NCBI GenBank assembly: GCA_016931715.1
Contig: JAFGEF010000074.1
Coordinates: 1 to 64,000, forward strand
Length of the DNA stretch: 64,000 bases
Source of the DNA: Sedimentisphaerales bacterium
GTDB lineage: Bacteria; Planctomycetota; Phycisphaerae; Sedimentisphaerales; Anaerobacaceae
Reading direction: 5' to 3'
Part shown: in pieces, positions 19,104-21,772 of the stretch
How positions within the stretch are numbered: position 1 is the first letter of the stretch
Layout: each line of letters begins with the position of its first letter
Notes under the pieces: generated by a model
Database searches by the model: none
The model's input: only the letters and a program-made list of their open reading frames with translations
Told to the model about the DNA's origin: nothing
Translations under genes and position numbers: made by a program

Positions 19104-19214
19104 TTTATTTCTGCCTGTTTGAAACTTGCCGCAGCATAGAAATAATCTCGCCCGGGATTGTTTTACCGGAAGTTTCTATTTTACGGCATCGTTCCATGCC
19201 TTGTCGTATTCGCC
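19104..19214. repeat. Direct-repeat copy A of the TPR-gene 3' end; forms the tail of the DUF1080 gene
   Basis: Aligns without gaps to 21661-21772 except for a 1-nt indel; last 28 nt (catcgttccatgccttgtcgtattcgcc) identical. Confidence 0.9.
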
Positions 19215-20033
19215 CAAGGGTCTGAGCCATATGTTTCGATAGCGGAGCGGATTGCCGTGGTCCTGCAATTCGATGAAGACCTCCGGCGGATGCGGTCGCC
19301 GATAGACGCCCAGTGACGTATGCGGCACGCCGCCGATGCCGTCGGTGGCTCCAAAGTAGTCCCTCTTGTGGTGCAGCACCAGGCCGTTATGGATTACAGT
19401 CACGTTGGCATTCTTGATTTGGTTGCCGTTCGGGTCCCAGCGTGGTGACTCCCAGATGATATCGTAGGTTTGCCATTCGCCGGGCGCTTTGCAGGCGTTC
19501 ACGAGCGGCGGGGTTTGGCCATACATAGACCCGCACTGCCCATCGGGATAGGTCTTGCTGTTGTAGCTGTCCAGCACCTGGATTTCGTACATCCCATTAA
19601 ACATGACGCCGCTGTTGCCGCGTCCCTGTCTTTCGCCTCTCACCTGGCTTGGCGTGGCGAACTCGATGTGCAGTTGGAAGTCAGCCCAGTGGTCTCTCGT
19701 GCGGATACCGCCTCGTCCGGTTTCCATGAATCCGGCACTATCCACTCGCCAGGAAGCGTTCTGGCCATTGCCGGACTGCCATTTCGAGAGGTCATTGCCA
19801 TCGAAAAGCACTACTGCGTCTGCCGGAGCGGGCGCACCAAGGCTGAATGTCGCTGCCGGTGCAACAACTCGCGGCTGCGGCCGATCCCCATCATGTACAT
19901 GCCAGTTCGTGCCGGGGATGATCGGCGTGTTGCTATATCCCAGCCCCTGCTGTATGGCCGCGTATAATATCGCACCGCAGCTTGTGGCAGCAAAAGTTAT
20001 CAGACAAAGTGCGATTGATCGTTTGTTGAGCAT
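19176..20033 (-). CDS. DUF1080 (3-keto-disaccharide hydrolase-like) secreted protein with chimeric C-terminus LGEYDKAWNDAVK
   Basis: LFDGNDLSKWQSGNGQNASWRVDSAGFMETGRGGIRTRDHWADFQLHIEFATP...GNSGVMFNGMYEIQVLDSYNSKTYPDGQCGSMYG; start at MLNKRSIALCL. Confidence 0.9.
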   Translation of the reverse strand: MLNKRSIALCLITFAATSCGAILYAAIQQGLGYSNTPIIPGTNWHVHDGDRPQPRVVAPAATFSLGAPAPADAVVLFDGNDLSKWQSGNGQNASWRVDSAGFMETGRGGIRTRDHWADFQLHIEFATPSQVRGERQGRGNSGVMFNGMYEIQVLDSYNSKTYPDGQCGSMYGQTPPLVNACKAPGEWQTYDIIWESPRWDPNGNQIKNANVTVIHNGLVLHHKRDYFGATDGIGGVPHTSLGVYRRPHPPEVFIELQDHGNPLRYRNIWLRPLGEYDKAWNDAVK

Positions 20034-20133
20034 AGTACTAATCCTTTCATAGATAAACAGGCACAACCATCAATAAAATAACAATAATTATAGCGGATAT
20101 TGGCGGCTGGTCTTATTATTCATTGAAGGCTTT

Positions 20134-20171
20134 AATAGATTCCCACGCCTGTGAAAGCGTGGGAGTCTATT
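20134..20171. repeat. 15-bp palindrome aatagattcccacgc / gcgtgggagtctatt (one G:T)
   Basis: Read directly; intergenic between the DUF1080 and esterase genes. Confidence 0.75.
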
Positions 20172-20271
20172 TTAAAGCTTTGTCCGTTAGGCCGCTTTAT
20201 TGTCTAAAATGGTCTACAACTTCGCCCTTACAGGCGGAGAACTACTGCGAAATTAGATGCGACTATTATTT

Positions 20272-21405
20272 TTATCGAAACAACTTCTGTGAAAACAGGT
20301 ACAGATTGTTCTTCCAGACTTTAAAATCATGTCCGCCGCCGTCATCCACGTGCCATATATGCGTCACCTTTTTTTGCACCAATCCAAGGTGGAAATTGTA
20401 AGGACCCTGTCCAACTGTACCGTCCCTGTCACCGCAGCCAATCCACAATAGTTTCAACTTTTTATTAGGCGCCTCTGGATCTGGAACCAGTTGATCAACC
20501 GACTGTGTGTTTGGAGCGTGGGAAAAAGCTCCTACCCAAGCGAAGGTATCGAGGTTTGCCAGGCCGATGTTCAATGCCTGACCGCCACCCATCGACAGCC
20601 CAGTTATTGCACGGTGTTCGCGATCTGTATATACAGAATAGTGTGACTCTATGAAGGGAATAATGTCTTTAAGCAAATCGTCAGTGAAAGGCGTTCCCCA
20701 GCCGCCGAAGCCGCCCATACCGCCGCCGCGACCACCCATCATTCCACCGCCTCGTCCGGCAGTTCCTCTGCGACCCTCGGCACCACCTTCTGTCGGACCA
20801 GCCGCAGCTGCGAAGTACATGCCGTTCGGAGTTACCGGCGCCATAGCGCCTGGCCCGCGACCGCGACCTTCTCCGCCTCTGCCTGTTGCGTCACCGCGTC
20901 CGGCAGGAGCCGAAGCATCGCCGTTCGGGAAGACAACAATCATTGGCTCAATTTTCTTGTCGGACAGAAGATTATCGAGGATTACATTCGCCGCTCCCTG
21001 CCCGGTCCACTCTTTCCTCTCATTGCCGCCGATGCCGTGAAGCACATAGAGCACTGGATACTTCTTGTCCCTGGAATAATCCGCTGGTGTATAAACCTCC
21101 ATCCAGCGTTTTACGCCAACGGTTTTGGAATCGTATTCAACCTGTTCAAGCTTGCCTGCTGTGACACCTTCTCGCTTAGCATCAAATCCTGCAGGTGCAA
21201 CAGTTCTATCAGCACCCTCATAATAAGCCTCCGGGACAGTACCGCCTCGACCTCCACCACCCATCCCCAATCCTCCCATACCGCCGCCTCTTCCACCCAT
21301 TCCGCCTGCCCGGCCGCCTGCCGCTGGTGCATCCTGGGCAACTGCCGCAATCGATAGACAGACAGAAATAATTGCACAGAACAACAATACTCTTTTCTTC
21401 AACAT
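20272..21405 (-). CDS. Secreted esterase (CE1/feruloyl-esterase-like) with Gly-rich low-complexity segments
   Basis: [36 protein letters not shown] nucleophile elbow; two long G/R/M-rich segments; signal peptide. Confidence 0.88.
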
Positions 21406-21660
21406 AATCAAACCTCCATAACATAAACTATAAAACCATAATTTAAAAAGACTTCTTCGCAGAGGTCTATACTACAATACAAATAATTATATCAATACCG
21501 GATTGTCGGTGAAAGCAAAAACTCCGACAATCCGGTATCAGACTTTTTGTTACTGTCATGATAAGATACAAGCAAATTAATTAAAACTGTATCAGCGATG
21601 TCGTAATCGTTTGTTTAAATAATGCGGTTTTGATTGATTGAAAATCATATGAACCGGAGA

Positions 21661-21772
21661 TTTATTCTTGCCTGTTTGAAACCTGCCGCAGCATGAAAAA
21701 AAACTCGTCCGGGATTGCCTGTCCGGTAGTTTCTATTTTACGGACATCGTTCCATGCCTTGTCGTATTCGCC
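21661..21772. repeat. Direct-repeat copy B (3' end of the intact TPR gene)
   Basis: See 19104-19214. Confidence 0.9.

Follow-up and report, generated by a model that had tools for sequence, protein, structure and literature searches.

Probable insertion of an esterase gene and a foreign-looking DUF1080 hydrolase gene, with a long target duplication, at the 3' end of a TPR gene in a Sedimentisphaerales bacterium

The window analysed here is a 64,000-nucleotide stretch of Sedimentisphaerales bacterium DNA (assembly GCA_016931715.1, contig JAFGEF010000074.1, positions 1 to 64,000). The locus of interest consists of four genes, for which Pfam returned 3keto-disac_hyd, Esterase, TPR repeats and GH97, together with two copies (A and B) of a direct repeat. 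The features are as follows.

17071..19077 (+): GH97 gene (Pfam), a convergent neighbour by which the original target site is located; 81% identical to its counterpart in genome G002
19104..19214 (-): copy A, a 37-codon relic (stop counted) of the 3' end of the TPR gene
19176..20066 (-): DUF1080/3-keto-disaccharide hydrolase ORF (PF06439); TTG at 20066, likely true start ATG at 20033
19204..19214 (-): junction J2, GGCGAATACGA, common to the native DUF1080 3' end (genomes G317 and G365) and the TPR gene
20067..20290 (-): 3' end of the esterase gene with the 3' region beyond it; homology to the terminal part of the genome's own esterase array (G000:C80)
20134-20171: terminator-like hairpin in the esterase 3' region
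20272..21411 (-): esterase gene (PF00756), 379 aa, with a 71% identical ortholog in an esterase array of G002 (G002:C29)
21412..21660 (-): AT-rich esterase leader, of which BLAST shows the 43 nt before the gene to be conserved in G002
21661..21772 (-): copy B, 3' end of the intact TPR gene, as defined by the repeat alignment
21662..22654 (-): intact TPR gene (Pfam TPR repeats), ortholog of G002:C132:40903-41877 (64%)

The DUF1080 product is predicted to be a 3-keto-disaccharide hydrolase with a complete PF06439 domain, matched from position 2 to 187 of the 187-position profile (E = 4.2e-38; 131.7 bits against a cut-off of 26.8), and the profile of its family alignment matched PDB entry 4qhz at 8.6e-86. 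DUF1080 enzymes act on 3-keto-disaccharides such as 3-ketotrehalose, with BT2157 and CCNA_01705 among the proteins discussed (PMC9007349). The leader of the esterase gene contains a hairpin at 21495-21538 (perfect 15-bp arms, 14-nt loop) that may be a terminator or a regulatory site; a search for RNA elements in the 16-25 kb interval gave no Rfam match up to E = 1.

Copies A and B, 111 and 112 bp long, are direct repeats lying one on each side of the inserted genes. They align as an 83-nt block at 84% identity and a 28-nt block at 100% (offset 2557/2558), with a score of 152, where 300 shuffles reached 26 at most, and differ by 13 substitutions and one 1-nt deletion (12% divergence), the 28 identical nucleotides being located at one end. 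An earlier note, made from the letters alone, had described this repeat; its coordinates, indel, reading frames and identical block were all borne out, and its "roughly a dozen" substitutions came to 13. In the intact TPR gene, the repeated stretch encodes GEYDKAWNDVRKIETTGQAIPDEFFFMLRQVSNRQE followed by the stop codon. The DUF1080 ORF enters copy A and stops after ...GEYDKAWNDAVK, its frame ending ...RPLGEYDKAWNDAVK and a stop within the copy, while beyond that stop the other frame still reads RKIETSGKTIPGEIISMLRQVSNRQK up to a stop of its own. The 1-nt deletion in copy A lies between 19186 and 19187 (GATGTCCGT to GATGCCGT), as read from a metagenome-type assembly. Both the deletion and the readable second frame agree with what had been noted in this assembly sequence, as does the identification of copy A as a TPR-gene relic, on which the alignment and the reading frames concur. 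The DUF1080 gene now ends in copy A, which also forms its spacer to the GH97 gene; 26 nt lie between the copy and the GH97 stop in the window. A dispersed or mobile repeat is out, since the A/B sequence has no further copy elsewhere in the genome, and no second long two-copy repeat pair of this kind was found in the window. An extension of the copy B repeat into the GH97 tail was also rejected, its score (11.5) being not above chance (mean 9.7). A search among genome contigs for relatives of the TPR gene gave distant matches only.

The original arrangement can be read from G002, a genome of the same genus, which is the one genome in which the empty allele was seen. Its locus (L059) shows synteny on both sides and carries the GH97 gene (8906-10882, +) and a single TPR gene (10898-11872, -) 15 nt apart, with neither the esterase nor the DUF1080 gene. 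On the GH97 side of our locus, copy A occupies the place that the TPR 3' end has in this empty site; by this geometry it stands where the TPR gene used to end, and across the insert copy B makes the TPR gene complete again. The segment is therefore to be read as an insertion with a target duplication of about 110 bp and not as the remnant of a tandem TPR array, and the suggestion of an insertion or recombination scar is upheld by the empty site and the duplicated TPR 3' end.

As for the cargo, the DUF1080 gene looks foreign and appears, from its tree position and base composition, to derive from a distant GC-richer lineage. Its nearest homologs lie outside its own family, in G317 (67%) and G365 (68%), two genomes of another order of the same class with a GC content of 64-65%, and a maximum-likelihood tree groups it with these and a partial G663 gene at 100/100, apart from the DUF1080 genes of its own family, including another gene of this genome. 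Its GC3 is 0.67, compared with 0.49 for the esterase and 0.39-0.44 (about 0.41) for most neighbours. A plasmid vehicle for the gene was considered and rejected, all plasmid matches being below 60% identity and the best listed at 39-42%.

Comparison of the protein ends alters the account of what the TPR gene contributed. Most DUF1080 homologs end at RNIW.R.L or a few residues beyond, as the earlier note had expected for an ending near NIWLRPL, and a "YD" ending occurs in 17 of the 56 homologs compared, with RPLGEYDQP and RPLGEYDRP among the examples. The native ends in G317 and G365 are RKLGEYDQPGGK and RKLGEYDQSGGK, each followed by the stop, with the pattern RKLGEYDQ(P/S)GGK, and there the codons CTA GGC GAA TAC GAT CAA encode LGEYDQ, where the window has TTG GGC GAA TAC GAC AAG. 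Against the GEYDQxGGK end of this clade, the last 12 residues of the window protein are GEYD-KAWND-AVK. Since the closest relatives carry LGEYD natively, the window protein owes its LGEYD to its own gene and not to the TPR gene; GEYD would thus have been the native DUF1080 end, with the TPR gene supplying only KAWND, the frameshifted AVK and the stop. The earlier proposal that the relic donated a stop codon and new C-terminal residues consequently stands for the stop, KAWND and AVK and falls for LGEYD; orthologs with an LGEYDKAWND tail, which would have spoken against it, turned up by half, with LGEYD present and KAWND absent. In the predicted fold, the last strand spans residues 275-283 and residues 285-296 have low confidence; as it lies beyond the last strand and in this low-confidence part of the model, the borrowed tail is probably neutral for function.

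DNA homology with G317 reaches 19204 and TPR homology begins at 19214, the overlap being exactly GGCGAATACGA. This 11-nt word occurs once in the TPR gene; when the native DUF1080 gene and the TPR gene are compared over their full lengths, no longer word is shared, and shuffling of the native end reaches this length in 0.5-1% of cases. Sequence comparison with both parents thereby establishes J2 as an 11-nt microhomology joint, with the parents' common word placed exactly at the joint. The other junction, J1, lies at the TPR side of the esterase leader, right after the TPR stop, and matches the array context weakly (about 0.01 by shuffling).

The esterase has a different history. Its G002 ortholog is the last gene of the C29 array, with homology starting from 43 nt upstream of the gene; the C80 array of the present genome is without that esterase, and the esterase 3' region matches the end of this array with a score of 90 against a shuffle maximum of 38.5. 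By these comparisons it is a gene of the genus, relocated relative to G002. The description of the two cargo genes as a high-GC pair therefore survives for DUF1080 only, whose GC3 is foreign-looking, and not for the esterase, whose high GC arises at the first two codon positions of a Gly/Ala-rich protein; low GC is found in the 249 bp before the esterase (0.32) and in the 205 bp between the two genes (0.40). Import of a single high-GC segment is ruled out by the GC3 values and by the array orthology of the esterase. Taken together, the array homology and the foreign-looking DUF1080 gene indicate that a local esterase and a foreign hydrolase have been joined in one segment, perhaps assembled in more than one step. 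As a separate observation on these arrays, the esterase 3' regions (L109, G000:C80; L093, G002:C29) are alike among paralogs within each genome and differ between the genomes, pointing to concerted evolution or to an exchange of 3' ends that is specific to the lineage.

Our best explanation, which we consider highly likely, is that the esterase and DUF1080 genes were inserted at the TPR 3' end with a long target duplication and a joint at GGCGAATACGA. The TPR gene would originally have lain tail to tail with the GH97 gene, and the insertion would have duplicated about 110 bp of its 3' end, the DUF1080 gene stemming from the distant GC-richer lineage and the esterase from the genus's own array. 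At the outer joint, a crossover or template switch at the 11-nt word (DUF1080 ..L-GEYD-Q.. / TPR ..AL-GEYD-KAWND..) would have swapped the QPGGK-like native end codons of DUF1080 in frame for the TPR tail, while the inner joint kept the TPR gene whole. A later 1-nt deletion in the redundant copy would then have trimmed the borrowed tail to KAWND-AVK. Whether this took one event or several, whether the joining was a template switch or homology-facilitated illegitimate recombination, and by which route the DNA was taken up are parts of the account that we infer.

The pattern of differences between the copies bears on the manner of insertion. The first 45 nt are free of substitutions, all 13 of which fall within the remaining 66 nt (p about 6e-4, post hoc), and by codon position the changes number 6:2:5, with no third-position excess and hence no sign of constraint. 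In a three-way comparison, A and B have the same base at 26 sites where G002 differs, and at 7 sites one copy goes with G002; unless gene conversion has intervened, the duplication is thus more recent than the split from G002. When polarised, 5 changes are unique to B and 2 to A, so that a faster decay of A is not visible. The clustering and the absence of faster decay in A fit either later gene conversion near the joint or a TPR tail brought by the donor itself, and give a hint of gene conversion or of recombination involving a homeologous tail, as opposed to a simple duplication with subsequent decay, the two being equally compatible in a comparison that rests on one outgroup.

A mechanistic variant of the preferred reading, which we regard as possible though the less probable form, is homeologous recombination with a donor relative that already had the order TPR-esterase-DUF1080. 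A crossover in the first 45 nt would bring in the donor tail as B and leave the resident tail A beside GH97, so that the A/B divergence would reflect donor versus resident and not decay. The mosaic of 0 differences in 45 nt and 13 in 66 speaks for this variant, as do the private changes in B, at least as numerous as those in A; however, gene conversion between A and B yields the same mosaic, the 6:2:5 ratio is unlike that of genes under constraint, and no donor with this arrangement was found in the genomes searched. The remaining readings fare less well. The earlier note had taken copy A for the tail of a once separate TPR paralog, all but the tail having been destroyed when the esterase and DUF1080 genes came in. 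Copy A is indeed a TPR 3' end with the right orientation and place, and a short-lived tandem duplication could have arisen in the lineage, but G002 has a single TPR gene, no second copy stood beside any of the eight ortholog loci read (G002 and seven others), and a relic that starts exactly at the DUF1080 microhomology makes a longer paralog unneeded, all of which renders this reading improbable. Slightly less probable again is that the TPR 3' end serves as a recurrent acceptor, the incoming DNA having carried a homeologous TPR tail (copy B); if true, the TPR gene would be kept while its old tail is recycled as the 3' end of the cargo, and the site would be a safe landing place for catabolic genes in the lineage. 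An assembly chimera, to which the 173-contig metagenome-assembled genome, the foreign-looking gene and the 28-nt exact repeat might point, is very improbable, as two different joints would be required, the joint word is accounted for by the native sequence of the donor gene, copies diverged by 12% are not assembler duplicates, and the esterase 3' region matches the same genome. Site-specific integration into the gene's 3' end, with A and B as att sites and B as an element-borne replacement end, has a fitting geometry, in that the host gene is restored, its old tail is displaced and one end has an identical core, but is scarcely credible for a 2.5-kb segment of esterase and hydrolase without a recombinase, whose core word belongs to the cargo gene itself and for which a second use of the site was not seen.

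Other features were observed along the same contig. About 29 kb of the window (32126-60877), containing Rnf genes, radical SAM, ApbE, DUF7305/ice-binding-like and Calx-beta protein genes, is almost without counterpart on the syntenic G002 contig, and to its right the order is inverted (61.1-74 kb versus 56.8-69.7 kb, opposite strand); judged from this alignment, the region appears to be a rearrangement with a lineage-specific block. A 152-aa orphan ORF at 16324-16782 with a lipoprotein-like start (GC3 0.275, no Pfam match) is absent from G002, where its neighbour genes are adjacent, and an aspartate-ammonia ligase (AsnA) gene at 9815-10963 is likewise absent at the syntenic place. A perfect 21-bp tandem duplication (ATAATTTTACCGTTAAATATT) lies at 24239-24280, between the start of a TMEM260-like gene and the next gene. 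On another contig (G000:C168:18389-19014; L110 3390-4015), a small putative MNT/HEPN-like pair (a nucleotidyltransferase-like protein of 95 aa and one of 113 aa) sits beside a korA-like gene and is not among the genes listed for the matching G002 stretch.

The preferred reading, insertion with a long target duplication, has precedents. Such insertions were described by Nobusato, Uchiyama, Ohashi and Kobayashi (2000, Gene 259:99), as cited in PMC1643837 and PMC3031569, and the cases related there mostly concern restriction-modification genes in strains of one species. Our locus resembles them in having extra genes between long direct repeats whose target is single in the empty allele, and in that neither a transposase nor IS ends explain the insertion, the cargo proteins being Esterase and 3keto-disac_hyd only and the A/B repeat occurring nowhere else in the genome. 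It differs in that the cargo is an esterase and a DUF1080 hydrolase, restriction-modification genes (an associated but not strictly defining feature) being absent from the segment by Pfam, and in that two species are compared and the repeat copies are no longer identical. Homology-facilitated illegitimate recombination, with homology at one end and illegitimate joining at the other (abstract of PMC3240628), is resembled by the short-homology J2 and a possible homologous anchor in the TPR gene. The 0/45 versus 13/66 mosaic is compatible with such an anchor, the donor arrangement itself not having been found in the genomes searched; unlike the laboratory work with defined donors in that source, ours is a reconstruction of one old event. 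Microhomology-mediated illegitimate recombination that activates or duplicates transferred genes (PMC11111574) is similar in its joint at about 9-11 nt of common sequence and in the involvement of a transferred gene, and dissimilar in that here the whole unit is not tandemly repeated and a 3' end was swapped instead of a promoter captured.

Overall, the locus is no new kind of system but a clear case of an ordinary genome accident, and a clean example of long target duplication outside restriction-modification genes. It also carries a caution, namely that a repeat match at the end of a gene does not mean that all the common residues were donated, as GEYD pre-existed. Above all, it illustrates at the level of single nucleotides how a transferred gene came to lack its own stop and to carry a C-terminus that was borrowed and later trimmed, the cause of this end swap being an 11-nt coincidence between two unrelated coding sequences.
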